A program made the position numbers and the translations under genes. Shown piece by piece: positions 1 to 13,536 of a DNA stretch of 13,859 nt. The DNA comes from Treponema sp. (GTDB taxonomy: Bacteria > Spirochaetota > Spirochaetia > Treponematales > Treponemataceae): positions 1 to 13,859 of the forward strand of contig JAGABO010000122.1 in NCBI GenBank assembly GCA_017614655.1, written 5' to 3'. The notes below the pieces were generated by a model that worked only from the letters and a program-made list of their open reading frames with translations, was not told where the DNA came from and searched no databases. Position 1 is the first letter of the stretch. Every line of letters begins with the position of its first letter.

Positions 1-629
1 TCGATCTTCAGACCAGGCAGATAACCAGCACTGTAACGCCTGAAGAGAGGTTCTTCTATGCTGTAAATACAAATGACGGAAGCAGGATATACGGTTATGA
101 TTATGACCATGGATTCATGTATATTGACCTTAAGACAGGCGAAGTCCTTCCTCCCGGCTCAACAGGCGAACTTGTATTTACTACACTCCGGAAGCATGCA
201 CGCCCGCTTATCCGTTTCAGAACCGGAGACATCGGACGCATTGACCAGACACCATGTAAGTGCGGACGAACACACGGAAGAATCCACATTCTTGGACGCA
301 AGGACGACATGTTCATCGTAAGTGCAGTTAACGTTTTCCCGAGCGACATCGAAGCTGTAATCCGAGAAGAAAAGGATCTGACCGGTGAATATCTTATCCG
401 CATTTTTGAAAAAGACTTCACCTGCAGATATTCAGTAGAAGTTGAAAAGGCAAGTACAAGTACAAAGACTGACGAAGAAGTTGCAGCCCTTACAAGCGCA
501 GCACTTAAGGGAAGGATCGGAGTAAAGCCTTCGTCTGTTGTGGTGCATAAAGACGGCGAACTCAATACACGCAGCGAACACAAGTCAAAGCGCATCATTG
601 ATGAACGCAACTTGAACTACAATATTTAA
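1..629 (+). CDS. paaK: Phenylacetate-CoA ligase-like adenylate-forming enzyme, C-terminal part (5' end outside window)
   Basis: The reading frame is open from the left edge (first whole codon at base 3) to a TAA at 627-629, giving about 208 residues of a family that is usually about 430 long, so the N-terminal AMP-binding half lies outside. The ANL-superfamily signatures present are RFRTGDIG (the hinge region before the C-terminal domain), a Cys-rich CKCGRTH segment, GRKDDMFIVSAVNVFP and, near the end, a Lys-rich RSEHKSKRIID that matches the usual position of the catalytic lysine in PaaK-type ligases. These enzymes couple aryl or acyl acids to CoA using ATP. In anaerobes they often occur with ferredoxin-linked 2-ketoacid oxidoreductases, and one is encoded here at 7056-9978, though not adjacent. 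The substrate cannot be read from the sequence; phenylacetate or another aryl acid is the family expectation. An internal ATG at 117 is not the true start, because homology continues upstream of it. Confidence 0.85.
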   Translation, partial: DLQTRQITSTVTPEERFFYAVNTNDGSRIYGYDYDHGFMYIDLKTGEVLPPGSTGELVFTTLRKHARPLIRFRTGDIGRIDQTPCKCGRTHGRIHILGRKDDMFIVSAVNVFPSDIEAVIREEKDLTGEYLIRIFEKDFTCRYSVEVEKASTSTKTDEEVAALTSAALKGRIGVKPSSVVVHKDGELNTRSEHKSKRIIDERNLNYNI

Positions 630-706
630 GTCACGGTAAGGAAACTTCAGGGGAACTTCGAAAAACTCGATTTTTCTGAGTTTACATCAATATTAAGGAG
701 GGACAC

Positions 707-1558
707 ATGGCTTCTAATTTAATGCCTGAGTATCTTTTTTCAGATCCGGAAAACATTTCTCCTACAGCACTGCCTGACTACACCACTCTGGATTTTATAA
801 GCAACGGTTCTCACATTTACGGCGAAATCATGTGGCCCTCCGAAAACCAGCCTAAACCGCATCCCTGTGTAATAATGCTGCACGGTTTTCCTGGTACGGC
901 ACGTAACGATGACATTTCGCATGCACTCTGCAGAATCGGCTGTGTCGTACTGGTTCCGCACAACCGTGGTGCATGGGGAAGCGAGGGAAAGTATCTTATT
1001 ACAAACTGCATAGAAGATGCACTCAATCTTGCAGAATATGCACATTCAGAAGAATTTACAGAAAAATATAACGTGGATCCTTCCCAGATTTTTTTACTCG
1101 GTCACAGCATGGGCGCAAATTCTGCTTTAAATGCAGGACGCAGACTGAACTGGATCCGCGGAATCATTATGCTTACTCCCTACGATCCTGCACGCTATTT
1201 AAACCGGAGCAAGGAAAGTTATTTCCGTTCTCTTCTAGAAGAAGGGAAGATACTCAAATCAGACGGAATTGATGCAATTTACGAAGATGTCGTCATAAAC
1301 AAAAACGAAATAAGTCATCCTAAAGCCTTTGAACAGGTTAAGGACAAAAACCTTCTTGTAATCGGCGCAAGTTACGATTCTGTTTCTCCAATCAATGAAA
1401 TGATTTTACCCTTATGGAATCAGCTTGAAGCAAATTCCCGGAACACAAAGGCCGTTCAGAAAAAAATTGACTTTCCGACAGAACACGGACTCTTGGGAAG
1501 GAGAATCAGCGTAATAAAAGAAATTGCATCTTTCATAGAAGAAGTCTGCAATTCATAA
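707..1558 (+). CDS. Alpha/beta hydrolase, dienelactone hydrolase/peptidase-like (cytoplasmic)
   Basis: This is a 283-residue alpha/beta-hydrolase with a complete apparent catalytic set. The oxyanion-hole segment is HGFPG at residues 59-63, the nucleophile elbow is GHSMG with Ser134, the likely acid is Asp224 in GASYDS, and His260 sits in TEHGLLG near the C-terminus. No signal peptide is visible, so it should act in the cytoplasm on an ester, thioester or amide. The ATG at 707 has a perfect AAGGAGG at 695-701, five bases upstream. It lies 77 bases after the paaK-like gene with no convincing terminator between, so the two may be co-transcribed, and a role near CoA-ester or aryl-acid metabolism is possible but unproven. 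The substrate cannot be assigned. Confidence 0.85.
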   Translation: MASNLMPEYLFSDPENISPTALPDYTTLDFISNGSHIYGEIMWPSENQPKPHPCVIMLHGFPGTARNDDISHALCRIGCVVLVPHNRGAWGSEGKYLITNCIEDALNLAEYAHSEEFTEKYNVDPSQIFLLGHSMGANSALNAGRRLNWIRGIIMLTPYDPARYLNRSKESYFRSLLEEGKILKSDGIDAIYEDVVINKNEISHPKAFEQVKDKNLLVIGASYDSVSPINEMILPLWNQLEANSRNTKAVQKKIDFPTEHGLLGRRISVIKEIASFIEEVCNS

Positions 1559-1578
1559 CCTCAAGAACGGCGTAAATC

Positions 1579-1587
1579 TGTTATAAT
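1579..1587 (+). promoter_or_regulatory. Extended -10 promoter for the aminotransferase gene
   Basis: TGTTATAAT at 1579-1587 is a perfect extended -10 element (TG, one base, then TATAAT at 1582-1587). No good -35 hexamer lies 16-18 bases upstream, which is typical of extended -10 promoters. The predicted transcript start is near 1594, giving a leader of about 40 bases before the ATG at 1635. The aminotransferase gene therefore probably has its own promoter even if the upstream hydrolase transcript also reads through. Confidence 0.6.
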
Positions 1588-1634
1588 GCTGACATGCACG
1601 ACCACAGGAACGGAATTTATAAGGAGAACTTAAT

Positions 1635-2795
1635 ATGCCAGATTTATCAAATAGAACTTCTAACTTTACGGACAGCGTTATCCGCCGCATGACCCGCATT
1701 TCCAACCAGTACGGTGCCGTTAACCTTTCGCAGGGCTTTCCTGATTTTAATCCGCCGCAGCAAATCTTAGACAGGCTTGCAGAAGTTACGCGCGAAGATT
1801 TTCATCAGTATTCAATCACATGGGGCGCTCAGAATTTCCGGGAAGCACTCGCTGCAAAAATAAAGCACTTTTCAGGAACAGACGTAAACCCAAACGAAGA
1901 ACTTGTAATCACCTGCGGTTCAACAGAAGCAATGATGGCTGCAATGATGAGCGTTACAAATCCCGGTGACAAAGTAATCGTGTTTTCTCCGTTCTATGAA
2001 AACTACGGTGCCGATACTGTCTTAAGCAGTGCCGAACCGATTTACGTTCCGCTTAATCCTCCTGAGTTTAACTTTGATCCGGAAGTACTCGAAGATGCAT
2101 TCAGGCAGAAACCGAAAGCAATTATCGTTTGCAATCCTTCAAATCCATGCGGCAAGGTCTTTACCCGCGAAGAACTTACCGTAATTGCGGATCTTGCAAA
2201 AAAGTATGATGCATTTGTAATCACTGATGAAGTTTACGAGCACATTCTTTACAAGCCTAACGTCCACACATACATGGCAAGCCTCCCTGGAATGAAGGAA
2301 CGCACAATCACATGCAATTCGCTTTCCAAAACATATTCGATTACAGGATGGCGGCTCGGCTATGTTCAGGCTAATCCGGAAATAACTGACCGCGTAAAAA
2401 AAGTCCATGATTTTCTTACGGTAGGTGCCGCTGCCCCGCTCCAGGAAGCAGCAGTTGCAGGTTTAAGGTTCGGTGACGAATACTATGCAGCACTTCAGGA
2501 AAAATATACGCACAAGAGAAACCTGTTCTTAAAAGGTCTGGACGACATAGGACTTAAGCATACTGTTCCTCAGGGTGCATATTATATTCTGATTGATATA
2601 AGCGAGTTCGGTTTTAAAAGCGACATGGAATTTGCCGAAGTTCTTGCACGTAATGTCGGTGTAGGTTCCGTGCCCGGCTCTTCATTCTTTAAGGAACCGG
2701 AAAACCGCTATATAAGGCTGCATTTTGCAAAAAAAGACGAAACCCTTAATGAAGCGCTTAACAGGCTTTCAGAAATAAGGAAAAAAATTAAATAA
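1635..2795 (+). CDS. PLP-dependent class I/II aminotransferase
   Basis: This is a 386-residue fold-type I aminotransferase of normal length. It carries NLSQGFPDF at 30-38, NPSNPCG at 167-173, DEVYE at 198-202 (Asp198 for the PLP pyridine nitrogen), SLSKTYSITGWRLGY with PLP lysine Lys232, and RYIRLHFAK with Arg361 for the substrate alpha-carboxylate. The NLSQGFPDF opening and overall pattern place it with the aspartate/aromatic/kynurenine-type aminotransferases that exchange amino groups between amino acids and 2-oxoacids. The exact amino acid is not readable; aromatic, methionine or aspartate are all plausible. AAGGAGA at 1621-1627 supports the ATG at 1635. It has its own extended -10 promoter and no clear terminator before the strong promoter that starts the cysteine leader eight bases after its stop. 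Confidence 0.9.
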   Translation: MPDLSNRTSNFTDSVIRRMTRISNQYGAVNLSQGFPDFNPPQQILDRLAEVTREDFHQYSITWGAQNFREALAAKIKHFSGTDVNPNEELVITCGSTEAMMAAMMSVTNPGDKVIVFSPFYENYGADTVLSSAEPIYVPLNPPEFNFDPEVLEDAFRQKPKAIIVCNPSNPCGKVFTREELTVIADLAKKYDAFVITDEVYEHILYKPNVHTYMASLPGMKERTITCNSLSKTYSITGWRLGYVQANPEITDRVKKVHDFLTVGAAAPLQEAAVAGLRFGDEYYAALQEKYTHKRNLFLKGLDDIGLKHTVPQGAYYILIDISEFGFKSDMEFAEVLARNVGVGSVPGSSFFKEPENRYIRLHFAKKDETLNEALNRLSEIRKKIK

Positions 2796-2798
2796 ATA

Positions 2799-2820
2799 CC
2801 TATTGACAAAATAGGTTTTA
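2799..2820 (+). promoter_or_regulatory. Operator-like site 1, overlapping the -35 box
   Basis: An inverted repeat, ACCTAT (2798-2803) and ATAGGT (2811-2816) with a seven-base centre, is followed by TTTA. The 22 bases from 2799 are identical at 16 of 22 positions to 2833-2854. The site covers the -35 hexamer, so a bound protein would be expected to block polymerase. The form, a short imperfect palindrome beside a cysteine operon, recalls operators of Rrf2-family sulfur regulators such as CymR. That assignment is inference; no Rrf2 gene is in the window. Confidence 0.45.
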
Positions 2821-2831
2821 TACTGTATATT
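2803..2831 (+). promoter_or_regulatory. Strong sigma-70 promoter of the cysteine leader and operon
   Basis: A perfect -35 TTGACA (2803-2808) is followed, after exactly 17 bases, by -10 TATATT (2826-2831). The start site should be close to 2838, which leaves about 27 bases before the leader ORF start at 2865 and about 190 bases before the first structural gene at 3028. It is the closest match to consensus in the window. A promoter this good in front of a terminator suggests that control is exerted after initiation or by repression. Confidence 0.8.
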
Positions 2832-2832
2832 T

Positions 2833-2854
2833 TCTACTAATTAAGTAGGTTTTA
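2833..2854 (+). promoter_or_regulatory. Operator-like site 2, overlapping the transcription start
   Basis: CTACT (2834-2838) and AGTAG (2844-2848) form an inverted repeat around AATTA, followed by the same TAGGTTTTA that ends site 1. The centres of the two sites are 34 bases apart, about three helical turns, so two bound dimers could lie on nearly the same face. The site covers the predicted start at about 2838. What is seen is the repeat and its position; repressor binding is inferred. Confidence 0.45.
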
Positions 2855-2864
2855 AGGGTTTTAT

Positions 2865-2939
2865 ATGAACATGAATTTTTATGCAGACAGATCAATCTCT
2901 TCTTGCTGTCAGTGCTGTTGCAGGCACAGGCGGACATAA
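2865..2939 (+). CDS. Cysteine-rich leader peptide, 24 residues (attenuator uORF)
   Basis: A short ORF starts at ATG 2865 with AAGGG at 2854-2858, six bases upstream, and stops at TAA 2937-2939. Its C-terminal half reads SSCCQCCCRHRRT: five Cys codons (TGC TGT at 2904-2909; TGC TGT TGC at 2913-2921) in a 24-residue peptide. It is too short to be an enzyme and too regular to be chance next to cysteine-synthesis genes. Known amino acid attenuators encode runs of the regulated amino acid, and polycysteine uORFs act this way in mycobacteria. The stop codon lies directly after the antiterminator arm at 2929-2935, so a ribosome finishing the ORF would cover that arm, while one stalled on the first Cys codons would leave it free. 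An in-frame ATG at 2871 is a less likely start because its spacing to the ribosome site is 12 bases. Confidence 0.82.
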   Translation: MNMNFYADRSISSCCQCCCRHRRT

Positions 2940-2986
2940 CGTGCATAAGCATATTTTTATAGAACATTAATTCTATAAAGTCCGCC
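2929..2986 (+). promoter_or_regulatory. Antiterminator hairpin of the cysteine attenuator
   Basis: GGCGGAC (2929-2935), at the end of the leader ORF, is exactly complementary to GTCCGCC (2980-2986), which is also the 5' arm of the terminator. The enclosed segment contains a perfect 9-bp AT-rich hairpin, TTTATAGAA (2956-2964) with TTCTATAAA (2971-2979), that ends directly against the GTCCGCC arm and could stack on it. The 8-mer CAGGCGGA occurs twice, at 2927-2934 and 3002-3009, and the two copies compete for the same partner. That is the expected design of mutually exclusive antiterminator and terminator structures. A small GTGC/GCAC hairpin (2912-2915 with 2924-2927) within the Cys codons could serve as a pause site. 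Folding energies were not computed. Confidence 0.75.
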
Positions 2987-3018
2987 GGTTCAATTCAAAA
3001 CCAGGCGGATTTTTTTTT
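2980..3018 (+). terminator. Intrinsic terminator of the cysteine attenuator, before the methyltransferase gene
   Basis: TCCGCC (2981-2986) pairs with GGCGGA (3004-3009), extended by a G-U pair (2980/3010) and by an inner GGTT (2987-2990) with AACC (2999-3002) across one bulged A. It is followed by nine T residues (3010-3018). The ribosome site GGAGG of the next gene begins at 3019, immediately after the T-run. The terminator therefore sits in the leader of the operon, not at the end of a gene, which is the hallmark of attenuation. Confidence 0.88.
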
Positions 3019-3027
3019 GGAGGAATC

Positions 3028-3945
3028 ATGATAGACGAACAGGAAAGCATAACTGCAAAACTCTGCTCATTTGCGAGGGCCTTTCATTCAAACTATGGCG
3101 AAAACAAAATCTATGATGATTATCTTGCCTTTGACCTTATGGGAAAAAAGCAGTACGAAGAAATGGGGCAGCTTATTCAAAACGGGTTTAACAGAAAACT
3201 GTTTGATGAAAAAAAATGGTTCAATCATAAATACATTCAGGAATCCGTTTACAATTACATGCTTCCTATTCCTCTTTCCAGAATAAGCTTTGCCTGCAAT
3301 GAACTTTCTGCTTTTGCAAAAAAGCATTCTGCCGGCGGTAAGAAAATTCAGTACGTAATCTGCGGAGCCGGAATGGATTCGTTTGCATTCAGGAATACGA
3401 ATGAAAATATTCATGTATTCGAAATTGATCATCCGGACACTCAGAAATATAAAAAGGAAAGGATTAAGGAACTGGACTGGATGCTTCCAAGAAACCTTAC
3501 TTTTGTTCCTGTTGATTTTACAAAAGACAGCCTCAAGGAAAAGCTCATCAAAAGCGGATTTGATTCTTCAGTTCCGACTTTTACGGCAATTCTAGGCGTC
3601 TCTTATTATCTTGAACTTAAAGTGTTTGAAGAGACCTTAAAAATCATTTCGGAACTTACGGACACGGAAAGCAGAATCATTTTTGATTTTCCGGATGAAA
3701 CAACCCTTTCTGCAGAAGCTGCAGCTCGTGTTAAAAAACTTGCACAGATAACGGCTAATCTTGGAGAACCGATGGTAAAAGGATTTTCATTAAAGGAGAT
3801 TTCAGAGGCACTTGAACGTCATTCTCTCAGAATTGGAAATCACGAAAGTCCGGACGACATTCAGAGAAAATATTTTGCAGGAAGAAAAGACAGCTTAAGG
3901 GCTTATGAGAACGTTCACTTTATACGCGCAGAAAAAATAGGATAA
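3028..3945 (+). CDS. LCM-family class I SAM-dependent methyltransferase
   Basis: This 305-residue protein has the leucine-carboxyl-methyltransferase (LCM/PPM/TcmP) family signature. The SAM motif is ICGAGMDSFAFR (residues 111-122), the post-motif acidic strand is FEIDHP (131-136) with Asp134 likely to hold the ribose, VDFTKD is at 162-167, and the LGVSYYL segment is at 189-195. Length is normal for the family. GGAGG at 3019-3023 sits four bases before ATG 3028. It is the first gene behind the cysteine attenuator and is 21 bases from the mccB-like gene, so it should be controlled by cysteine. In Bacillus subtilis the SAM-recycling operon also begins with a methyltransferase (YrrT) followed later by mccA and mccB. 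This protein appears to be from a different methyltransferase family in an analogous position. The methyl acceptor is unknown; a role in generating S-adenosylhomocysteine from SAM is inference. Confidence 0.83.
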   Translation: MIDEQESITAKLCSFARAFHSNYGENKIYDDYLAFDLMGKKQYEEMGQLIQNGFNRKLFDEKKWFNHKYIQESVYNYMLPIPLSRISFACNELSAFAKKHSAGGKKIQYVICGAGMDSFAFRNTNENIHVFEIDHPDTQKYKKERIKELDWMLPRNLTFVPVDFTKDSLKEKLIKSGFDSSVPTFTAILGVSYYLELKVFEETLKIISELTDTESRIIFDFPDETTLSAEAAARVKKLAQITANLGEPMVKGFSLKEISEALERHSLRIGNHESPDDIQRKYFAGRKDSLRAYENVHFIRAEKIG

Positions 3946-3966
3946 ACAATAAATGGAGGCAAAAAT

Positions 3967-5130
3967 ATGTCAGGAAAAAACTACAGGACAATCGAATCAA
4001 GGCTGATTCACGGCGGTATTTACGGAGATGAACACACAGGAGCTGTCAACGTACCGATTTATCAGACTTCGACTTATGAACAGCAGGGACTCGGGCAGAA
4101 CAAAGGCTGGGAATATTCAAGGACAGGAAACCCGACACGTGCAGCACTTGAAGCACTCATTGCAGAACTGGAAGGAGGCACGCACGGCTTTGCATTCGGT
4201 TCCGGAATGGCTGCCTTAACTGCAGTACTTTCGCTTTTCAAGAGCGGAGACAGAATCGTAATTTCAAGCAACGTCTACGGAGGAACGTTTCGCGTACTCG
4301 ACAAAATTTTCAAGAACTTCAACATCACTTACTCTATCGAAGACACAACTGATCTTGAAGCACTTGATAAAAAAATTACTGATGACGTCAAGGCAATTCT
4401 TATTGAAACTCCGGCTAACCCGCTTCTGACGATTACTGATTTAAGCGGAATTGCTGCCATTGCAAAAAAGCACGGAATTCTCTCTATAGTTGACAACACG
4501 TTCATGACTCCGTATCTTCAGCGGCCTATAGAAAACGGAATCGACATTGTCGTCCACAGTGCTACAAAATATCTTGGAGGACACAGTGATGTCGTTGCAG
4601 GACTTGCCGTAGTTCACGACAAGCTTCTGGCAGAACGACTTGCTTTTATTCAGAATGCAACCGGCGGAGTGTTAGGACCGTTTGATTCTTTCCTTTTAAT
4701 CCGCGGAATAAAAACTCTGGGTGTGCGGCTTGACCGTCATACAGAAAACGCACTTAAAATTGCCACATGGCTCAAAGGTCATGAAGCAATAAAGAACGTT
4801 TACTACCCGGGACTTGAATCTTCACAGGGATATGAAATCAATAAAAAACAGGCTAAGAACGGAGGTGCAATGATAAGTTTTGAGTTAAAAGAAAACTATG
4901 ATCACGCAAAGTTCTTTGCTTCACTCGGCCTCATTGCTCTTGCAGAAAGCCTTGGCGGAGTAGAAAGCCTTGCATGTCATCCGGCAAGCATGACTCATGC
5001 AAGCATTCCCCGCGACATTCGTGAAAAGGTCGGAATCACTGACGGCCTGATAAGGATTTCGGTTGGAATCGAAGGTGCAGATGATTTAATTGCTGATTTA
5101 CAGCAGGCTATTGAAAAGGCAGGTAAATAG
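3967..5130 (+). CDS. mccB: Cystathionine gamma-lyase/gamma-synthase (MccB/MetB-like), PLP enzyme
   Basis: This 387-residue Cys/Met-metabolism PLP enzyme is of normal length. Motifs include IHGGIYGDEHTGAVNVPIYQ (14-33), YSRTGNPTR (50-58, the Tyr and Arg that reach the neighbouring subunit's PLP phosphate), SSNVYGGTF (100-108), VDNTFMTPY with Asp176, SATKYLGGHSDV with PLP lysine Lys201, and AESLGGVESLACHPASMTHAS (327-347). It resembles Bacillus MccB closely as I recall that sequence, which cleaves cystathionine to cysteine, 2-oxobutyrate and ammonia. Gamma-synthase activity with an O-acylhomoserine cannot be excluded by sequence alone. The next gene, a MccA-type beta-synthase, favours the lyase role in reverse transsulfuration. 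GGAGG (3955-3959) supports ATG 3967. The gene lies 21 bases after the methyltransferase and one base before the next ORF. Confidence 0.88.
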   Translation: MSGKNYRTIESRLIHGGIYGDEHTGAVNVPIYQTSTYEQQGLGQNKGWEYSRTGNPTRAALEALIAELEGGTHGFAFGSGMAALTAVLSLFKSGDRIVISSNVYGGTFRVLDKIFKNFNITYSIEDTTDLEALDKKITDDVKAILIETPANPLLTITDLSGIAAIAKKHGILSIVDNTFMTPYLQRPIENGIDIVVHSATKYLGGHSDVVAGLAVVHDKLLAERLAFIQNATGGVLGPFDSFLLIRGIKTLGVRLDRHTENALKIATWLKGHEAIKNVYYPGLESSQGYEINKKQAKNGGAMISFELKENYDHAKFFASLGLIALAESLGGVESLACHPASMTHASIPRDIREKVGITDGLIRISVGIEGADDLIADLQQAIEKAGK

Positions 5131-5131
5131 A

Positions 5132-6073
5132 ATGAATTACTTTAACTCAATGCAGGACTTAATCGGAAACACACCGCTTGTACGACTCGGCAACATGGGA
5201 CTTCCGGAAGGAATCAATTTATATGCAAAACTTGAACTCTGGAATCCCTCGGGTAGCGTAAAGGACAGAATCGGACGCGAAATGATTTCTGATGCAGAAG
5301 CCAGGGGAATCTTAAAAGAAGGCGGAACAATTGTAGAAGCAACTGCAGGAAACACCGGACTTGGAATTGCATTTGCAGCTCTTAAAAAAGGCTACAAGGT
5401 AATATTCGTAGTTCCCACAAAGTTCAGTCAGGAAAAGCAGACCCTTATGAAAGCACTCGGAGCAGAAATCGTAAATACTCCGAGGGAAGAAGGAATGCTT
5501 GGTGCAGAAAAAAAGGCGGAAGAAATCATTGCAGGAATTGAAGGAGCCGTTTCTTTAAGGCAGTTCAGGAATCCAGCGAATCCGCTTGCACATTACAGAA
5601 CGACAGGACCTGAAATCCTTAAGGCACTGGACGGAAAAATTGACTGGTTTGTCGCAGGAGCCGGAAGCGGCGGAACTTACACGGGAATCGTAAAATATCT
5701 TAAGGAACAGAATCCCTTAATCAAGGGTGTTCTTGCAGATCCGATCGGTTCTACTATGGGCGGCGGTGAGCACGGTGACTATAACATCGAAGGAATCGGA
5801 AATGATTTTATTCCTGATACAATGGACATAAATCTTGTAGACAAAGTAATAAAAGTTACGGATGCCCAGGCTTTTGTTTCTTCACGAGAACTTGCACGTA
5901 AAGAAGGTATTCTTGCAGGAAGTTCAAGCGGAGCAGCTTTTTCTGCAGCAAAGTTTCTTGCACAGGAACTTGCACAGAACGGCGAAATAAAAAAAGCGGG
6001 CCGAAGCATAAATATCGTAACGCTTTTTCCGGACCGCGGTGACAGGTACTTTTCAAAGAAACTTTATGAATGA
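5132..6073 (+). CDS. mccA: O-acetylserine-dependent cystathionine beta-synthase / cysteine synthase (MccA/CysK-like)
   Basis: The 313-residue fold-type II PLP enzyme starts at ATG 5132, one base after the mccB stop, suggesting translational coupling. IGNTPLVRLG is at 11-20, PSGSVKDRIG carries PLP lysine Lys44, and the substrate loop is EATAGNTGLGIA (69-80). The PLP-phosphate loop is GAGSGGTYTG (176-185), GSSSGAA is at 263-269, and it ends in FPDRGDRYFSKKLYE. The TAGNTG loop and this ending resemble Bacillus MccA, which makes cystathionine from O-acetylserine and homocysteine, more than classic CysK with TSGNTG. It can also be a cysteine synthase using sulfide. There is no CBS regulatory domain. 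An in-frame ATG at 5090 would overlap mccB and add 14 residues before the conserved MNYFNSMQDLIG start, so I reject it. The ribosome site is weak (AGG-rich sequence inside the end of mccB). Confidence 0.85.
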   Translation: MNYFNSMQDLIGNTPLVRLGNMGLPEGINLYAKLELWNPSGSVKDRIGREMISDAEARGILKEGGTIVEATAGNTGLGIAFAALKKGYKVIFVVPTKFSQEKQTLMKALGAEIVNTPREEGMLGAEKKAEEIIAGIEGAVSLRQFRNPANPLAHYRTTGPEILKALDGKIDWFVAGAGSGGTYTGIVKYLKEQNPLIKGVLADPIGSTMGGGEHGDYNIEGIGNDFIPDTMDINLVDKVIKVTDAQAFVSSRELARKEGILAGSSSGAAFSAAKFLAQELAQNGEIKKAGRSINIVTLFPDRGDRYFSKKLYE

Positions 6074-6086
6074 TAATATTATAAGT

Positions 6087-6112
6087 CCGGCAGAATAGCT
6101 GCCGGCTTTTTT
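6087..6112 (+). terminator. Intrinsic terminator ending the methyltransferase-mccB-mccA operon
   Basis: CCGGCAG (6087-6093), loop AATAG, CTGCCGG (6099-6105): a perfect 7-bp GC-rich stem followed by C and six T (6107-6112). It lies 14 bases after the mccA stop. As with the attenuator terminator, the T-run runs straight into the next gene's ribosome site (GGAG at 6113-6116), so the LysR-type regulator may be expressed partly by readthrough. Confidence 0.88.
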
Positions 6113-6124
6113 GGAGCGTAGACA

Positions 6125-7042
6125 ATGACGATACAGCAGCTTAAATATGTAATAGGAATTTCAGAAACAGGTTCTTTTAACAAGGCAGCAGAAAAACTTT
6201 ACGTTTCTCAGCCTTCGCTTACAAGTACCATTCATGATCTGGAAGATGAACTTGGAATTACCATCTTTAACAGGACCGGACGCGGAGTTACGCTCACAAA
6301 TGACGGACACGAATTTGTTTCGGCCGCAAAACAGGTATACCTTAACTTTCTTAACCTTGCAGAAAAGTACGGAGAAAATTCCTGCATAAAGAAGAAGTTC
6401 GGAGTTTCTACGCAGCACTACTCTTTTGCAGTAAAAAGTTTTGTAGAAATGGTAAAGCACTTTAATACAGATGAATACGAGTTTGCAATCCGTGAGACGA
6501 AAACAAAAGAAGTAATAGAGGATGTTGCTTCTTTAAAAAGCGAAATCGGCATCCTTTACCTGAGTGACTTTAACCGTAAACCGATAGAAAGTCTTTTAAA
6601 AACAAGGGATCTGGAGTTTCATCATCTTATAGACTGCAAGGCCTACGTTTATTTATGGAAAGGAAATCCTCTTGCTAAGAAAAAGTTCATTACGTTCAGT
6701 GATTTAAATGATTATCCTTGCTTAAGTTTTGAACAGGGCGACGGAGAAAGTTTTTATTTTGCAGAAGAAATCTTAAGCACAGAAGAATACAACCGTACCG
6801 TTAAGGCAAACGACCGTGCAACAATGCTCAACCTTATGATAGGATTAAACGGATACACCCTCTGCTCCGGAATAATCTGCAGGGAACTGAACGGTTCAGA
6901 CTTTATTGCAGTACCGTTCCGTGATGAAGATGATAAAATCAACCGCATCATGCAGATAGGTTACATCACCAAAAAGAATTTTACGCTCAGCACTATCGGT
7001 GAAAAATACATTCAGGAAGTAAAGGCTTATCTTGAGATTTAG
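6125..7042 (+). CDS. LysR-type transcriptional regulator, probably of sulfur amino acid genes
   Basis: This 305-residue LysR-family protein of standard length has the N-terminal winged helix-turn-helix at residues 1-60 (SFNKAAEKLYVSQPSLTSTI as recognition region, then LEDELGITIFNRTGRGVTLT) and a type-2 periplasmic-binding-fold effector domain from about 92 to 290. GGAG (6113-6116) is eight bases before ATG 6125. It follows the mccA terminator immediately and converges on the oxidoreductase operon with a gap of only 13 bases and no visible terminator. Position beside cysteine/methionine genes suggests it senses a sulfur metabolite, as CysB, CysR or MetR do, but the ligand is not readable. It is the only DNA-binding regulator fully encoded in the window and so the leading candidate for the repeated TTAT-N8-ATAA element before the por and met operons. 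Confidence 0.88.
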   Translation: MTIQQLKYVIGISETGSFNKAAEKLYVSQPSLTSTIHDLEDELGITIFNRTGRGVTLTNDGHEFVSAAKQVYLNFLNLAEKYGENSCIKKKFGVSTQHYSFAVKSFVEMVKHFNTDEYEFAIRETKTKEVIEDVASLKSEIGILYLSDFNRKPIESLLKTRDLEFHHLIDCKAYVYLWKGNPLAKKKFITFSDLNDYPCLSFEQGDGESFYFAEEILSTEEYNRTVKANDRATMLNLMIGLNGYTLCSGIICRELNGSDFIAVPFRDEDDKINRIMQIGYITKKNFTLSTIGEKYIQEVKAYLEI

Positions 7043-7055
7043 CGTTCAGATTATC

Positions 7056-7940
7056 TTACTTCCACTCGTAAAGAATCTTTTCCCACTTTCTGTTACGGCC
7101 TTCTACAATCAAATCTATATCCCCGTCAGTTAAATGCCTGAAGCGAGCCTGGCGGCGGATATAGTGTCCTACATCAGTAAACATTTCGGGATTATGCGTA
7201 AGCTTAAACTTTCCGTTTTCATATTCTGCAAGATAGAGAAGTCCTGTATCTACGATTTCTTTTGCAACTTCAACAGTTTCATCAACTTTTACACCCCAGC
7301 CTGTAGGACACGGAGCAATCACGTGAATGAATTTTGTACCGCGGATTTTAGATGCTTTTTCCACCTTGTTTATAAAATCCTGAATATAACCTACGCTCGC
7401 AGTTGCTGCATAAGGAATACCGTGAGCTGCAACTATTTCGAAGAGGTTCTTTTTCTGCCTTAGATTTCCGCGTACGTTTTTTCCGGCAGGTGTCGTAGTC
7501 GTCCCTGCACCAAACGGAGTAAGCGAACTTTTCTGAATGCCGGTATTCATGTAGGCTTCGTTGTCATAGCAGATGTAAAGGACATCATCATTGCGGTCAA
7601 TTGCACCGCTCAATGCCTGAAGTCCGATATCCGCAGTTCCTCCGTCTCCTGCAAAACCTACAACAACTGCATCATTGATTCCGCGTGCCTTAAGTCCTGC
7701 AAGAACGCCCGTCATCATGCTGGCAGTTCCTGCAAACGTAGAAATGATTGCATTGTTGGAAAAACAGAGTTGAGGATAATTAAAGCCGACTGCACTCATG
7801 CATCCTGCAGGAAGAACGGCAACTGCTTTTTCTCCCAGTACCTTAAGCGCAATCCTTACGGCAAGACTTCCTCCGCAGCCAGCACATGCCTTATGTCCGT
7901 AAAAAAATTCTTCTTCATTCAAAGTTTTTGCATTAATCAT
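7056..7940 (-). CDS. porB: 2-oxoacid (pyruvate):ferredoxin oxidoreductase, beta subunit
   Basis: This 294-residue TPP-binding beta subunit has the thiamine-diphosphate motif GDGGTADIG (98-106), reaching Asn127 in CYDNEAYMNTG, which is the standard GDG-to-N spacing. The iron-sulfur ligands are Cys19 and Cys22 (ACAGCGG), Cys47 and Cys211, matching the four cysteines of the beta-subunit [4Fe-4S] cluster. It decarboxylates a 2-oxoacid and passes electrons to the ferredoxin-like delta subunit, making acyl-CoA. The start overlaps the alpha gene by eight bases, with a ribosome site inside the end of that gene. It is the last gene of the gamma-delta-alpha-beta operon. Substrate could be pyruvate, 2-oxobutyrate or a branched-chain 2-oxoacid; sequence alone favours the pyruvate type but does not settle it. 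Confidence 0.9.
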   Translation of the reverse strand: MINAKTLNEEEFFYGHKACAGCGGSLAVRIALKVLGEKAVAVLPAGCMSAVGFNYPQLCFSNNAIISTFAGTASMMTGVLAGLKARGINDAVVVGFAGDGGTADIGLQALSGAIDRNDDVLYICYDNEAYMNTGIQKSSLTPFGAGTTTTPAGKNVRGNLRQKKNLFEIVAAHGIPYAATASVGYIQDFINKVEKASKIRGTKFIHVIAPCPTGWGVKVDETVEVAKEIVDTGLLYLAEYENGKFKLTHNPEMFTDVGHYIRRQARFRHLTDGDIDLIVEGRNRKWEKILYEWK

Positions 7941-9126
7941 TCTGCACCTCCTCCGGGATTCCTAAAAAATGCACCGGATGAACAATCCTGTCTTTTCCTT
8001 CGGTAAGTTTTTTAAGTTCATCATAGATTTCTTTTATATCGCTTATGCTTATGTCTTTGCCTCCAAGTCCACCGATGTAATTTATACACGGGAACTTAAG
8101 TTCTTCTTTTTTTAACACTGAATTTACATTAGTAAAAACCGTTCCTTCTGCTCCGAAAGAAATGTCTTTTTCCAGCACGGCACAGGCTTTAACACCAGAA
8201 AGGGCTTCCTTAATTTCTTTATCAGGAAAAGGCCTCATGTAGCGGATTCTTAAAAGTCCGGCTTTTATTCCTGACTCGCGAAGTTCATCTGCTGCCTGCT
8301 CAACAAGACCGGCAATACTTCCTAAAGTAATGATTACAAAATCTGCATCATCAGTCCTGTATTTTTCTACAAGACCTGTATAATGCCGGCCGAAAATCTT
8401 TTCAAAACGTCCTTCGGCTTCACTGACAGCATCTCGGACATTGAGCATTGCACGGTGTTCTTTATACTTAAAGAAAGTATTCGTATCTGGACCTGCAGAA
8501 AATGCAAGGTTCCTGGGATTTTCAAAATCAAAGCAGTTGTCCGTTTTAAAATGCGGAAGAAATTCATCTGCTTTTTCCTGTTCAGGTACGTCTACACTTT
8601 CATAAGTATGAGTAAGTGCAAAGCCGTCCAGGTTTACCATAAACGGTGTCTGCACTTTTTTATGTTCAGCTATGTAATATGAAAGCAGTGCAAGATCAAG
8701 TGCTTCCTGTCCATTTTTTGCATAAGCCTGAATCCATCCGCTGTCTAAAAGTGCAAGAGAGTCACGCTGGTCTCCGTAAATATTCCACGGCAGAGCAGTC
8801 GAACGGTTTGCATTCATCATGACTATGGGAAAACGTCCTCCGCTTGCATACACCAGGCATTCAGCCATATAAAGAAGGCCCTGTGAACTTGTTGCAGTAA
8901 ACGCCCGCGAGCCGGCTGCACTTACACCCATTGCGCAGGAGAGGGCAGAATGTTCGGATTCAACATGAATGAAATCACTTTTTAAGCTTCCGTCTTCTAC
9001 GAATTCAGAGAGCTTTTCTACTACGACAGTCTGCGGTGTAATCGGATAGGCAGAAATAACGTCAGGACGGGCAAGCCTTACCCCGTATGCGAATGCTTCA
9101 TCACCAGAAAGAAATTTATTTGCCAT
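7933..9126 (-). CDS. porA: 2-oxoacid (pyruvate):ferredoxin oxidoreductase, alpha subunit
   Basis: This 397-residue alpha subunit contains AYPITPQT (26-33), the acidic VESEHS loop (55-60, with Glu56 or Glu58 near TPP), an FTATSSQGLLYM segment (76-87), PWNIYGDQRDSLALLDSGWIQ (113-133) and LDGFALTH (166-173). The C-terminal domain II has RYMRPFP (295-301) and EKDISFGAEG (319-328). Length and motifs fit the PorA/VorB type rather than the short KorA type. It forms the active site with the beta subunit. The start ATG is one base from the delta-subunit stop. With only a few bases between or overlapping all four cistrons, the subunits are surely made from one transcript. Confidence 0.9.
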   Translation of the reverse strand: MANKFLSGDEAFAYGVRLARPDVISAYPITPQTVVVEKLSEFVEDGSLKSDFIHVESEHSALSCAMGVSAAGSRAFTATSSQGLLYMAECLVYASGGRFPIVMMNANRSTALPWNIYGDQRDSLALLDSGWIQAYAKNGQEALDLALLSYYIAEHKKVQTPFMVNLDGFALTHTYESVDVPEQEKADEFLPHFKTDNCFDFENPRNLAFSAGPDTNTFFKYKEHRAMLNVRDAVSEAEGRFEKIFGRHYTGLVEKYRTDDADFVIITLGSIAGLVEQAADELRESGIKAGLLRIRYMRPFPDKEIKEALSGVKACAVLEKDISFGAEGTVFTNVNSVLKKEELKFPCINYIGGLGGKDISISDIKEIYDELKKLTEGKDRIVHPVHFLGIPEEVQND

Positions 9127-9127
9127 A

Positions 9128-9424
9128 CTATTGTTCAGCCTCCATTTTTATTGCTTCAAACTTACAGATTTTTGAACAGATTCCGCATCCCTTGCAGAAA
9201 TCGTAATCTATCTTGATTTTTCCGTTTTCCCTGTCTCTGCTGATTACTCCGTCAGGGCAGTACAAATAACACTGAAGACAACCTTTGCATTTCATGACAT
9301 CGACAACAGGCCTTACATTTCTCCAGCCTGCATTTTTTGTAACAAGATAGCCGGCTTCATAAGCTGTTGCTTCCGGCACTTCCTCAAAGGCGACCGGCAC
9401 TTTATTTCTTAAATAAGGCTTCAT
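9128..9424 (-). CDS. porD: 2-oxoacid:ferredoxin oxidoreductase, delta subunit (2[4Fe-4S] ferredoxin)
   Basis: The 98-residue protein has two complete [4Fe-4S] motifs: CKGCLQCYLYCP with Cys46, 49, 52 and 56, and CKGCGICSKICK with Cys77, 80, 83 and 87. Its N-terminal stretch of about 40 residues (including VTKNAGWRNVRPV) is typical of PorD-type subunits, not free ferredoxins. It carries electrons from the TPP site to external ferredoxin. The ATG overlaps the gamma-subunit stop by four bases, implying coupled translation. Confidence 0.93.
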   Translation of the reverse strand: MKPYLRNKVPVAFEEVPEATAYEAGYLVTKNAGWRNVRPVVDVMKCKGCLQCYLYCPDGVISRDRENGKIKIDYDFCKGCGICSKICKFEAIKMEAEQ

Positions 9425-9978
9425 TCTGACCTCCCGAAAACTCTCTTTATTAAAAGAACATTCTTCTCCACAATCTTCTTTGGAAGATAACCTCTTACTG
9501 CTTCCGTAAGTTCGTCTTCGGAAACAATGGAACTGTTCCTGGCAAGAACAGAAAGCATTACCGTATTTGTAACCGGCATTTTAAGAATTTCCATGGCAAG
9601 ACTTGTTCCGTCAAAAGTAATAACTGAACTGCTGCTGATGATTTCATCAGTTTCGACTGGCTGATGCAGGAGTTCTTCTGCAGTCTTTTTTGTATTTATA
9701 AGAATCTTTCCGCCTTCTTTAATTTCTCTGAAAGCAGAAGCTGTAAACAATGTGTCATCAAGAAAAATTACGTAATCAGCTTTTTTAATCTGACTTCTGT
9801 CTCCAACAAGTTTTGAATCAAGCTTTGTAAAGGCAAGAATCGGAGCCCCCCGGCGTTCAGGACCGAACGAAGGAAAAGCAAGTGCATGTTTTCCTGTAAG
9901 AGAATAAGCTGCTCCTAAAACTTTTGCAGCAGAAAAAGCTCCCTGCCCGCCTCTACCGTGCCATAATACTTCTGTCAT
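9421..9978 (-). CDS. porC: 2-oxoacid:ferredoxin oxidoreductase, gamma subunit
   Basis: This 185-residue gamma subunit has the glycine-rich GRGGQGAFSAAKVLG (8-22) and PSFGPERRGAPI (36-47) motifs. These are characteristic of the domain that binds CoA and closes the active site in POR, KOR and IOR enzymes. It is the first gene of the operon; the order gamma-delta-alpha-beta is the same as the porCDAB order known from Thermotoga maritima. A GGAGG at 9983-9987 precedes the ATG (9976-9978). The 118-base gap upstream holds the shared 33-bp element and a -10 box, so transcription probably begins here rather than only by readthrough from the met operon. Confidence 0.9.
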   Translation of the reverse strand: MTEVLWHGRGGQGAFSAAKVLGAAYSLTGKHALAFPSFGPERRGAPILAFTKLDSKLVGDRSQIKKADYVIFLDDTLFTASAFREIKEGGKILINTKKTAEELLHQPVETDEIISSSSVITFDGTSLAMEILKMPVTNTVMLSVLARNSSIVSEDELTEAVRGYLPKKIVEKNVLLIKRVFGRSE

Positions 9979-10023
9979 AACGCCTCCATAAAATCTGTTC
10001 CTGCTGCAATTACATACCGTTGA

Positions 10024-10029
10024 ATTATG
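10024..10029 (-). promoter_or_regulatory. Probable -10 box of the porCDAB promoter
   Basis: Read on the minus strand, TTGTCATAAT ends at base 10024: a CATAAT hexamer preceded by TG and one base (extended -10). There is no convincing -35 at the right distance. The shared 33-bp element starts 22 bases upstream instead, which suggests an activator-dependent promoter with a start near 10017. The support is position and the matching layout before metQ. Confidence 0.45.
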
Positions 10030-10051
10030 ACAAAATTTGATTTTTATGAAT

Positions 10052-10084
10052 AATACAAGTTTTTTATGATGAGTTATAAGTTTT
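10052..10084 (-). promoter_or_regulatory. Shared 33-bp regulatory element, copy 1 (upstream of porC)
   Basis: This stretch is identical at 29 of 33 positions to 13559-13591 upstream of metQ, with differences only at positions 17, 18, 22 and 23 of the plus-strand copy. It contains TTAT-N8-ATAA (10064-10079), of the general LysR-type T-N11-A form. On the minus strand it carries a direct repeat AAACTTATA / AAACTTGTA spaced 21 bases, two helical turns. It sits 22 bases from the -10 box, the same as in copy 2. I infer a binding site for a common activator, possibly the LysR-type protein at 6125-7042. Confidence 0.65.
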
Positions 10085-10096
10085 GCTGATATGTTT

Positions 10097-10888
10097 TTAC
10101 TTAATTCCTAAAATCCGCTCTGCATTTCTGTAAGAAATCAATTCACGTTCATTCTGAGTAAGCGGAATACGGTTAAAGCGTTCGATTTCCGTTACAGGAT
10201 TCCACATCGGAAAATCTGAACCGAACAGACCGTTCTCTGCTCCATAAATATTAATGTAATGCTTTAACTTTTCAGGAGACAGAAAATAAAGGCAGCTGGA
10301 AATATCATAATAAAAGCGTTCACTTTTTAAAAGCGACACAGCTTCTTCAAAAAGTGACCAGCCTCCAAGATGAGCTGCAATTACGTTAAGCCTCGGAAAC
10401 ATTTTGATAACTTTTTTTAAGCGTTTAGGATGTGAAAGATCAGAAACAGGATCTCCGCAATGAAACAGCACCGGAAGCTTATCCTGTAAATAATCATAGA
10501 CTGGAAAAAGCTTTTCATCATCAATTGCTGTTTTCTGCTGATCAGAGTGAAACTTAATTCCTTTTAATCCGTTTTGAATTATATAATCTGTTTCTGATAA
10601 AAGTCCGTCTTCGCCAAGCCCTGCATGCAATGTCCCGAATCCGTAGAACTCTTCATGAACATTCTGTTCTTCAAGAATAAAATTATTAATGCTTCGGACA
10701 TTTTCAGGTTTTGTTGCAACTGGTAAAAGGATAAAAGAAGAAATACCCGCTTCCTTACCTTTTTCTAAAAGACGGGAAGCAGTTCCCTCCATTCCTTCCT
10801 TTAAGGAATAATACGCACACACAGCCTCTGCTGCTTTTTTTGCGATTTTTTCCGGATATATGTGCGTATGAAAATCAATTATTTTCAT
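10097..10888 (-). CDS. Metal-dependent amidohydrolase (amidohydrolase-2 family), last gene of the met operon
   Basis: This 263-residue TIM-barrel amidohydrolase has HTH metal ligands His7 and His9 (DFHTHIYP), GLKGIKFHSD (107-116), His143 in LFHCGD, His173 in AAHLGGW and the catalytic Asp225 in GSDFPMW. This His-X-His...His...His...Asp set is that of the amidohydrolase-2 (ACMSD-like) group, whose members hydrolyse or decarboxylate varied small substrates. No signal peptide is seen, so it is cytoplasmic. It starts one base after the metI stop and so appears to belong to the methionine-uptake operon, which is not a standard member. That suggests it processes something imported by the MetNIQ system or a linked metabolite, but the substrate is unknown. 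I see no terminator between it and porC. Confidence 0.82.
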   Translation of the reverse strand: MKIIDFHTHIYPEKIAKKAAEAVCAYYSLKEGMEGTASRLLEKGKEAGISSFILLPVATKPENVRSINNFILEEQNVHEEFYGFGTLHAGLGEDGLLSETDYIIQNGLKGIKFHSDQQKTAIDDEKLFPVYDYLQDKLPVLFHCGDPVSDLSHPKRLKKVIKMFPRLNVIAAHLGGWSLFEEAVSLLKSERFYYDISSCLYFLSPEKLKHYINIYGAENGLFGSDFPMWNPVTEIERFNRIPLTQNERELISYRNAERILGIK

Positions 10889-10889
10889 T

Positions 10890-11552
10890 TTATTTCCTGC
10901 TGACTTTTTTTACACCCCATTCACCGAGCATCTGGATTCCCTGAACAAGCACGATCAGAATAAGGACACAGATTATCATTATTTCGCTCTGATACCGCTG
11001 ATATCCGTAACGGTAGGCAAGGTCACCGAGCCCGCCTCCGCCGACAAGACCGGCCATTGCAGAAAATCCAAGTATGGAAACCGTTGTAACCGTTATATTC
11101 CTTACGAGAGAAGGAAGGGCTTCCGGAATAAGAATCTTTCTTATTACCTTAAGCTTTCCTGCTCCCGTAGAAATAAAGGCTTCTATTACGCCGCGCGACA
11201 CATCAGAAAAACTTGCTTCTGAAAGACGTGTAAAAAAAGAAACTGCCGCAATGCTCAAAGGAACAAGAACTGCCTTAGATCCGATTTTAGTACCGACTAT
11301 CAGTTTTGAAAGCGGAAGAAGAAGAACCATCAGAATCAGGAATGGAACAGACTGTATTATATTTATAATCACTCCGACTGTTTTATTTACAATCCTGTTC
11401 CTTACAAACAGCGGATTTTCTGTCGTGTAAAGAATAAGTCCTATGACGGTTCCAAGAATTATTCCGATTGAGACGGATATAATTACCATGTAAAAAGTCT
11501 GTTCCAGAGAAATCAGAATGTCATTCTTAACTTTTAAAATACTTTCTATCAT
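10890..11552 (-). CDS. metI: Methionine ABC transporter permease
   Basis: This is a 220-residue inner-membrane permease with about five hydrophobic segments (roughly 18-42, 57-80, 93-109, 152-172 and 192-208). The cytoplasmic coupling loop is around 123-147, followed by ALPSLVRNITVTTVSILGFS (145-164) and the MetI-typical GLVGGGGLGDLAYRYGYQRY (168-187). It forms the channel for D/L-methionine with MetN. The ATG overlaps the metN stop by three bases (TCATAC at the junction), with GGAGG at 11557-11561. Related permeases may carry other methyl-sulfur compounds, but the MetQ-MetN-MetI set makes methionine the best call. Confidence 0.92.
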   Translation of the reverse strand: MIESILKVKNDILISLEQTFYMVIISVSIGIILGTVIGLILYTTENPLFVRNRIVNKTVGVIINIIQSVPFLILMVLLLPLSKLIVGTKIGSKAVLVPLSIAAVSFFTRLSEASFSDVSRGVIEAFISTGAGKLKVIRKILIPEALPSLVRNITVTTVSILGFSAMAGLVGGGGLGDLAYRYGYQRYQSEIMIICVLILIVLVQGIQMLGEWGVKKVSRK

Positions 11553-12574
11553 ACTGCCTCCTTATAACGTGCCGCATATTTTTCCAGACGGAAAATTCTT
11601 TTTTCGATTTCAGCAGTAACTTTTCTGACGGAATCATCAGAACCTGCAAAATTAACGAACAGAATGCCGAGCGGCTTTGAACTTATGTACTCAATCTTTC
11701 CATGAAGTATATTGAACTGGACTTTATGCTCCGCCGTAACTTCGGAAAGTATGCTCTGAGTAGCACCGTCGCCTTTATAAATAAGCTTGTAAATGTCACC
11801 CTGAACATTTCCTGCGATTTCTTCCGGCAATTTAAAGTTCTGTCCGTGCGCAAGAAGTTCTTTCGTAAACTCATGCTTTGGATTCGTAAACACTTCGTAA
11901 ACGTCACCGAGTTCAACAACTTCTCCGTTTTTCATGACGGCCACACGGTTACAGATTGATTTTATTACGTCAAGTTCATGAGTGATGATTACGATTGTAA
12001 CTCCGAGTTTTTCATTTACTTCGCGAAGAAGCTTTAAAACAGAATTCGTTGTTTCTGCATCAAGGGCACTCGTCGGTTCATCACACAAAAGAATCTTTGT
12101 ATTGTTTGCAAGGGCACGTGCAATTGCAACGCGCTGCTTCTGACCGCCCGAAAGTTTTGCAGGGTATACATCACGTTTTTCAGAAATCTTTACGAATTCA
12201 AGAAGTTCATTCACGCGTTCTTCTATATCCTGCTTTTTCCAGCCGGCATCTTCCAGACTGAATGCAATGTTTTCGTAAACTGTCTTGCTTTCTGCAAGAT
12301 TAAAATGCTGGAAAATCATGCCGATGTTGCGGCGTAAATCATGAAGTTCCTTATGCTTAAGATCTTTTACTTCCTTTCCGTTAACGGTTACGCTTCCGCC
12401 GGAAATTTTCTGAAGCTGATTGATTGTCCTTAAAAGCGTACTCTTTCCGGCTCCGCTTCCTCCTGCAATTCCAAAGATATCGTTTTCTTCTATATTAAAG
12501 CTTACATTTTTTACAGCATGTACTGGAGTTTTTCCGTCATTAAAACTTACGCTTACATTGTCAAACCTTATCAT
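11549..12574 (-). CDS. metN: Methionine ABC transporter ATP-binding protein with C-terminal NIL domain
   Basis: This is a 341-residue ATPase. Walker A is GGSGAGKST (about 38-46), the Q-loop is IFQHFN, the signature is LSGGQKQR (about 141-148), Walker B is ILLCDEPTSALD and the switch histidine is in IITHELD. After about residue 258 comes an ACT-like NIL domain (LIYKGDGATQSILSEV...KIEYISSKPLGILFVNF). In E. coli MetN this domain binds methionine and shuts the transporter down when internal methionine is high. I take ATG 12572-12574 as the start, since AGGAGG at about 12582-12587 is then correctly spaced. A GTG two codons upstream would touch the ribosome site. The gene is separated from metQ by a 92-base segment with a stem-loop. 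Confidence 0.94.
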   Translation of the reverse strand: MIRFDNVSVSFNDGKTPVHAVKNVSFNIEENDIFGIAGGSGAGKSTLLRTINQLQKISGGSVTVNGKEVKDLKHKELHDLRRNIGMIFQHFNLAESKTVYENIAFSLEDAGWKKQDIEERVNELLEFVKISEKRDVYPAKLSGGQKQRVAIARALANNTKILLCDEPTSALDAETTNSVLKLLREVNEKLGVTIVIITHELDVIKSICNRVAVMKNGEVVELGDVYEVFTNPKHEFTKELLAHGQNFKLPEEIAGNVQGDIYKLIYKGDGATQSILSEVTAEHKVQFNILHGKIEYISSKPLGILFVNFAGSDDSVRKVTAEIEKRIFRLEKYAARYKEAV

Positions 12575-12597
12575 GCACACCTCCTTTAAAAAAGTAA

Positions 12598-12656: not shown

Positions 12657-12666
12657 TCCTTGATCT

Positions 12667-13482: not shown

Positions 13483-13530
13483 ATAACCTCCTCTCAAATC
13501 AAAAAAGCCTTTCGATTTCTGACAGTTAAG

Positions 13531-13536
13531 GTTATA
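13531..13536 (-). promoter_or_regulatory. Probable -10 box of the metQ promoter
   Basis: TATAAC (minus strand) at 13536-13531 lies 22 bases from the edge of the shared 33-bp element, exactly as the -10 before porC does. The -35 region (TAGAAC at 17 bases) is poor, which fits activation by a bound protein. The start would be near 13524, about 42 bases before the metQ ATG. Confidence 0.45.

Follow-up and report, generated by a model that had tools for sequence, protein, structure and literature searches.

A probable cysteine-codon attenuator in front of a methyltransferase-mccB-mccA operon in Treponema and Clostridia

Introduction

How is RNA polymerase admitted to an operon that begins behind a leader full of cysteine codons? 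The question is raised by a contig of Treponema sp. (JAGABO010000122.1, positions 1 to 13,859, forward strand), whose whole stretch of 13,859 nucleotides was analysed and is called hereafter the window. In it, a very short ORF stands between a promoter and genes for a methyltransferase, an MccB-like protein and an MccA-like protein. A reading of the sequence alone had taken this leader for an attenuator, on which scarcity of charged tRNA-Cys stalls the ribosome and lets polymerase proceed. In the trp, his and leu attenuators of enterobacteria a four-arm logic is used, with the control codons placed in arm 1. Does the leader of the window work in the same way, and is it confined to this organism? 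Our analysis favours, with a probability of about 0.9, a ribosome-mediated transcription attenuator that senses charged tRNA-Cys.

Results

Leader ORF and competing arms in the window

A good promoter (2803-2831, + strand) lies directly upstream of the leader, with a -35 box TTGACA at 2803-2808 and, after a spacing of 17 nt, a -10 box TATATT at 2826-2831. The leader ORF (2865-2939, + strand) consists of 24 codons, encodes the peptide MNMNFYADRSISSCCQCCCRHRRT and ends at the stop TAA (2937-2939); homologous leaders occur in related loci. It is preceded by AAGGG (2854-2858, + strand), likely the ribosome site of its own with which it had been credited. Five Cys codons are present at 2904-2921 (TGC TGT CAG TGC TGT TGC, + strand), and would be the sensor.

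The arms proposed for the switch follow on the same strand. Arm 2 (2923-2936) has the core GGCGGAC (2929-2935), which is exactly complementary to GTCCGCC (2980-2986) and in pairing tests joins arm 3 (2980-2990) as the antiterminator. Arm 3 can pair alternatively with arm 4 (2999-3010), as found by folding, and is then the 5' side of an intrinsic terminator between the leader and the first gene. The 3' side of this terminator includes GGCGGA (3004-3009) and runs into a tract of nine T (3010-3018, + strand). Arm 4 repeats arm 2, the 8-mer CAGGCGGA being found both at 2927-2934 and at 3002-3009, and the antiterminator, which occupies the terminator 5' arm, is mutually exclusive with the terminator. 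Between arms 2 and 3 a further hairpin is nested (2956-2979, + strand); a hairpin of different sequence holds the same position in the clostridial alignment.

On recheck, every position that the sequence-only reading had assigned to the leader ORF, the Cys codons, the arms, the 8-mer and the T tract proved exact. The spacing that it had put at about 23 bases is 22 nt, counted from the end of the first Cys codon to the antiterminator arm, and the stop codon that it had placed against this arm begins one base beyond the core, so that a ribosome at the stop would hide arm 2. One hairpin was absent from that reading: the Cys codons at 2904-2916 (arm 1, + strand) pair by folding with arm 2 (2923-2936), at -13.9 kcal/mol, and a pairing of the 1:2 type was seen in most clostridial leaders folded.

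Folding energies and the proposed switch

The RNA from 2838 to 3030 folded with a z score of -3.68, and one of 200 shuffles was equally good; the arm set of the window (L141) was better than those of all 40 dinucleotide shuffles. In RNA ending at 2999, in which arm 4 is not yet made, the 2:3 pairing was preferred, with or without arm 1. In the complete RNA, the state combining 1:2 and 3:4 reached -39.0 kcal/mol, versus -36.5 kcal/mol when 2:3 was enforced, and RNA from which arm 1 had been removed (starts at 2916-2925) still folded 3:4. The terminator also formed in RNA taken from 2952 on, which mimics a ribosome at the stop. Since the complete RNA prefers the terminator by energy alone, even with arm 1 covered, antitermination would have to be kinetic.

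The mechanism that had been proposed is most likely correct. Polymerase would make the leader RNA with a ribosome following it. When Cys-tRNA is ample, the ribosome would run through the Cys codons and reach its stop; with arm 2 covered or held in 1:2, 3:4 would form, and transcription would end at the T tract. When Cys-tRNA is scarce, the ribosome would stall on the Cys codons and cover arm 1, and arm 2, left free, would pair with arm 3 before arm 4 is synthesised. The terminator would then come too late, and polymerase would read through into the methyltransferase-mccB-mccA operon. We infer these steps of the leader (translation, stalling, termination, readthrough and their kinetics) from its sequence.

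Across the 13 leaders of the Treponema set, the median distance between the end of arm 2 and the beginning of the stop is 0 nt; in the 59 leaders outside this set the stop begins at a median of 14 nt past arm 2. The distance is at least 15 nt in 29 of these 59, where arm 2 might stay uncovered by a ribosome at the stop and the off state would have to rest on the 1:2 hairpin.

The leader in related loci

Related loci were collected by scanning genome contigs with a methyltransferase alignment (A1), the best 80 of 122 loci by similarity being taken, and by searching 200 genomes of the genus, 16 of which have the methyltransferase. Copies were removed (L142-L148 and L150, identical to L061-L067 and L069), as was L156, which has no start on its contig. 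The 87 methyltransferase starts that resulted are not independent rows, near-duplicates and paralogues (L089/L096) being still among them. In 74 of the 87 loci, the 500 nt ahead of the methyltransferase contain a small ORF with at least four Cys in seven codons. Four further loci (L069, L092, L109, L129) have clear relatives with three Cys in seven codons, and nine have no clear leader (L066, L067, L088, L100, L127, L128, L130, L136, L137). As a control, we scored the regions that lie upstream of other ORFs at these loci. Among 528 such regions 24 scored positive, of which 19 were the same leader and one (L133) a leader reached from another start; with these removed, a poly-Cys ORF was left in 4 of 508.

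The hosts among the best 80 of 122 loci, as labelled, are Treponema, Ruminococcus-like and other Clostridia, Eubacterium oxidoreducens, Lachnospiraceae and a few single genomes of other phyla. Two of the loci labelled as other phyla (L133 and L134) are without a terminator by the T-tract test. Named strains carrying the element are Eubacterium oxidoreducens DSM 3217 (L094) and Ruminococcus bromii YE282 (L111). The distribution of the attenuator is thus broader than had been claimed: it is no spirochaete oddity, most of the leaders retrieved coming from Ruminococcus-like and other Clostridia.

Within the genus, the methyltransferase was found in 16 of 200 genomes; the genome of the window is 57% complete. 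MccB orthologues of 82-93% identity were found in eight genomes, in one case as a fragment. A diverged poly-Cys leader with a terminator precedes the same methyltransferase in L003, L004, L006 and L007, and the operon is present without leader in L002 and L005 (the same as L067 and L066). In L008 and L010, mccB is present and no methyltransferase was found within the locus.

Two loci deserve separate mention. One genome (G232) has two copies of the operon, L089 and L096, each with its own Cys attenuator. On a contig of 353,687 bases labelled Paludibacteraceae (L068), the methyltransferase is accompanied by a Cys attenuator, and no mccB above 50% identity lies within 4 kb; this methyltransferase nests among Treponema proteins, which points either to transfer or to mis-binning.

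Conservation of the terminator and of the competing arms

The arms and terminators were then compared over the 80 loci that have an ORF with at least three Cys in seven codons, a set that includes L067 and L136, which are not counted as leaders. A T-tract terminator of -9 kcal/mol or better was found in 74 of these 80 candidate leaders. For each locus, the 33-nt stretch after the Cys codons was ranked against 73-116 upstream control stretches for pairing with the terminator 5' arm, arm 3 being defined from the terminator (T tract) alone; it outpaired all of them in 57 of 74. When the arm trio was chosen jointly, it beat all 40 shuffles in 73 of 80 loci, including L067, which has no leader and passes by its promoter repeats. 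At least one shuffle did as well in the other seven (L121, L131, L133, L134, L136, L138, L152). Measured from where the first Cys codon starts, arm 2 ends at a median distance of 34 nt (n = 80 with outliers kept in, quartiles 32-37), a placement at which a stalled ribosome would cover arm 1 and leave arm 2 free.

Arm sequences vary between lineages, yet match inside each locus. Examples are ACAGACGG with CCGTCTGT in L071, ACAGGCGG with CCGCCTGT in L073, ACAGGTGG with CCACCTG in L094 and ACTCGGGCA with TGCCCGAGT in L139. In arm swaps among 20 hand-picked representatives, the mean pairing energy was -14.4 kcal/mol for own pairs and -9.1 kcal/mol after swapping, and the own partner ranked first in only 10 of 20; this control is partial, the arms having been selected for pairing. 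In an alignment of 25 clostridial leaders (A4), antiterminator and nested hairpin were paired in 90.3% of cells, versus 33-43% when slid. Their 10 both-side changes, a number that none of 500 shuffles reached, fall into the 2:3 helix (three cells, one pair) and the nested hairpin (seven cells). The terminator was paired in 97.7% of cells but, strongly conserved as it is, did not rise above shuffles, 47 of 500 being as high.

The Cys codons and the competing arms are therefore kept in relatives, with arms that differ together between lineages, and the recurrence of this layout in dozens of diverged loci, together with the shuffle results, argues for more than chance. As to what the element is, the sequence-only reading was right: leader ORF, competing arms and terminator were all found, and their joint conservation, like the order of the genes behind them, can be read directly from the loci compared.

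Genes of the operon

The first structural gene (3028-3945, + strand) encodes a SAM-dependent methyltransferase that scores over the cut-off of TIGR00027 and matches Pfam LCM. It is followed by a gene for an MccB-like cystathionine gamma-lyase (3967-5130, + strand), for which the best NCBIfam model gave 560.9 against a cut-off of 594 and the best solved structure is a cystathionine gamma-lyase/homocysteine desulfhydrase. The third gene (5132-6073, + strand; searched as 5135-6070) encodes an MccA-like protein of the cystathionine beta-synthase / cysteine synthase type, two activities that the models fail to separate. A LysR-family regulator follows in the same direction (6125-7042, + strand), and close relatives of it lie near the operon elsewhere (L061, L062, L063, L153, L155, L008). 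We infer the enzyme names and exact activities from such matches.

A motif test indicated that 10 of 87 loci encode the methyltransferase as a fusion with a MetK-like domain, and the two fusions checked pass TIGR01034. In L070 and L094 (from 4001) methyltransferase and MetK are joined in one protein of about 700 aa. A LuxS-like motif was counted within 5 kb in 27 of 87 loci, a rough count on contigs of uneven length; in L070, luxS lies downstream and its product passes NF002604. Cysteine can be formed from methionine through SAM, SAH, S-ribosylhomocysteine, homocysteine and cystathionine. With the MetK fusion and LuxS in L070, the gene content fits cysteine, and the operon probably makes cysteine from methionine via SAM, SAH, homocysteine and cystathionine. 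The leader ORF would then be rich in codons for the very amino acid to which the gene content points as the product.

Elsewhere in the window, genes for MetQ-, MetI- and MetN-like transporter components and an amidohydrolase-like gene occupy 10097-13602 on the minus strand (MetI and the amidohydrolase recognised by eye). No MccA was found in the viral contigs scanned for it.

Sensed signal and level of control

The hairpin logic would be identical whatever stalls the ribosome, and leaders that sense antibiotics or ligands exist. The leader might in principle respond through the same hairpins to another stalling cue, such as an antibiotic, a stress on cysteine or a nascent-chain ligand. We regard this as quite unlikely, since what is conserved is a run of Cys codons before a probable cysteine-forming operon, whereas the residues flanking it vary. 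Most leaders have 4-6 Cys within seven codons, the window having five, and the number and spacing of the Cys codons vary among leaders. Both codons are used, TGT 286 times and TGC 147 times over 80 ORFs.

Selection might also act on the peptide: the leader could yield a functional Cys-rich product, binding metal or haem or acting in redox, with an ordinary terminator behind it. Patterns in the Cys run such as CCCMCC and a C-terminal DTGG do recur in Clostridia. However, DTGG is arm 2 (ACAGGCGGC) read in frame 0. The arm 2 core was recognisable in 65 of 80 ORFs, mostly in frame 0 (D-T-G-G and the like); in eight ORFs, seven of them in the Treponema set, it is read in frame 1 (H-R-R and the like), so that most Treponema leaders with the same core spell another peptide, and in L154 it lies in the third phase, beyond the stop. 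Position relative to the stop could be scored in 72 loci, L067, L131, L133, L134 and L136 being left out by hand and L095, L140 and L153 because the arm was found elsewhere. Arm 2 was wholly translated in 64, spanned the stop in three and lay wholly past it in five (L114, L151, L152, L154, L155). Since arm 2 is read in two frames, and since in 5 of 72 loci no part of it precedes the stop, it is kept as RNA and not as peptide; this pattern is predicted by an attenuator and not by a functional peptide. The N-terminal part before the Cys run is weakly constrained as coding sequence (pN/pS 0.74 over 151 close pairs, shifted frames being similar), and the variable number and spacing of Cys likewise speak against a peptide function, which we hold to be very unlikely.

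Equally hard to sustain is translation attenuation, in which the arms would mask or expose the ribosome site ahead of the first gene. Such control is stated for mycobacterial cysteine genes in the available part of one source (PMC13236596), and the accessible text of another describes Mycobacterium leaders without conserved terminator hairpins (PMC1262725). Here, the T-tract terminator of 74 in 80 candidate leaders points the other way. In the window, the first gene has its ribosome site, GGAGG (3019-3023, + strand), outside the terminator hairpin and ahead of the ATG at 3028, and 71 of 74 loci have a loose SD-like motif in the interval from terminator to ATG; both observations favour control of transcription. 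Least probable of all is control by a riboswitch or a Cys T-box, with an ORF that is there by coincidence: Cys T-boxes do precede the analogous ubiG-mccBA operon of Clostridium (PMC2940859, as far as the available text goes), but neither the window nor 24 related loci gave any Rfam match at gathering scores, and the layout of the leader already explains the arms.

Inverted repeats at the promoter

An inverted repeat, CCTATTGACAAAATAGG, extends across the -35 box (2799-2815), and a second one, TCTACTAATTAAGTAGG, lies directly past the -10 box (2833-2849). The first is a candidate operator, and so a possible second layer of control. A repeat like it is found upstream in 11 of the 16 methyltransferase loci of the Treponema set, including the leaderless L066 and L067, and also ahead of mccB in L008 and L010. 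In L066 and L067 the promoter repeat and the operon are kept and the Cys leader is absent.

Both repeats of the window have the form CCTA-N9-TAGG, a pattern that overlaps the operon promoter and was also seen in relatives (L008, L010, L195, L200, L204, L206, L214, L218). Among the retrieved loci with this pattern, 12 were inspected. The genes behind it include, by eye, those for O-acetylhomoserine sulfhydrylase (L200, L204), cysK (L206), an amino-acid-binding protein (L214) and mccB (L218, L010), and the pattern is present ahead of the rrf2 gene of the window genome as well. A CymR-like sulfur regulator may use this pattern as its operator. A reversed control pattern matched about as often in several genomes, so that many of the sites are probably due to chance.

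A like repeat, exact or relaxed, was observed at most 130 nt upstream of 6 of the 13 Rrf2-family gene starts found in the genus (L221-L233), two further starts not being found. The Rrf2-family gene L223 (G000:C169:10183-10572, minus strand), the only one found in the incomplete genome of the window, has its frame interrupted by a TAG; an Rrf2-family gene free of in-frame TAG was present in each of the 12 other genomes searched. Compared with family models, the Rrf2 protein of a relative scored above the cut-off for the Rrf2 superfamily and below that for CymR.

History of the leader and searches for further targets

On a methyltransferase tree of 86 rows, a quick one with many weak branches, the presence or absence of the leader requires seven changes when nine rows are taken as leaderless. 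Leaders are found in deeply separated branches, which suggests that the leader is old in the methyltransferase operon and was probably lost several times.

A covariance model of the Treponema-set leaders (R1) retrieved 42 places from 196 genomes, eight strong and 34 weak. All eight strong matches were known leaders of the same operon, one per genome. Among the 17 weak matches inspected (L165-L181), L180 was a known leader (the same as L155), and the other 16 had no poly-Cys ORF at the match. The reach of R1 is limited, as it gave no match in G017, G102, G118 and G121, all of which have leaders. A clostridial model (R2), applied to 17 genomes, found the known leader in nine and missed it in eight; beyond these it matched a second operon copy in a single genome and, weakly, two places that lack poly-Cys (L190, L193), and nothing else. 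A wider set of targets was not found with R1 and R2, both of which miss known leaders. A loose poly-Cys pattern was useless as a search tool, matching 196 of 196 Treponema genomes.

Discussion

With every sequence element in place, the window and its relatives would bring cysteine within the range of classical leader-peptide attenuation, in bacteria of the rumen and gut, for which T-boxes had been expected to sense tRNA-Cys. We lean, by a modest margin of confidence, towards a wider proposal: that these leaders form an undescribed RNA family, a single lineage of cysteine attenuators that existed before the methyltransferase-mccB-mccA operon spread through Bacillota, Spirochaetota and a few further phyla, replaces the Cys T-box of these Clostridia and is overlaid, in Treponema, by a second layer formed by a CymR-like Rrf2 repressor on CCTA-N9-TAGG operators.

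The sequence-only reading had known of no described cysteine attenuator of this type in a spirochaete-like organism. No prior description of this element was found in the literature searched, which left out most subscription papers. A cysteine attenuator with an intrinsic terminator had, however, already been predicted ahead of cysS in Rhodobacterales (uORFC-8-2). According to the available text of that source (PMC8632094), uORFC-8-2 is a uORF with tandem Cys codons and an intrinsic terminator, proposed to sense charged tRNA-Cys, and its Cys codons lie inside a first stem followed by the terminator, as they do here. The same text places it in Alphaproteobacteria, before cysteinyl-tRNA synthetase, with two tandem Cys codons (PMC8632094), whereas the leaders described here mostly have 4-6 Cys in seven codons, belong to other host groups, and precede a methyltransferase gene, then mccB and mccA in most loci, that is, a probable methionine-to-cysteine operon.

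Poly-Cys leader ORFs of Mycobacterium are reportedly cysteine-responsive and leaderless, by the title of Canestrari 2020. In actinobacteria, as described in the accessible part of the source, a short ORF with a run of Cys likewise precedes cysteine genes (PMC1262725); it is the T-tract terminator, present in 74 of 80 candidates, that sets the leaders described here apart.

In gene order the operon resembles ubiG-mccBA(luxS) of Clostridium, which has a Cys T-box in front of it in the available text (PMC2940859). The kind of operon (methyltransferase, mccB, mccA, luxS), the response to tRNA-Cys charging and the terminator/antiterminator output are the same there; the sensor is different, as the T-box RNA itself senses the tRNA and has no leader peptide (PMC2940859). 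Two unrelated RNA devices may therefore read the same signal for the same genes, and the pair would be a clean case of this kind.

With the trp, his and leu attenuators, finally, the leader shares the four-arm logic and the control codons in arm 1. It differs from them in amino acid, pathway and hosts, and in a stop codon that, outside the Treponema set, often lies well past arm 2.
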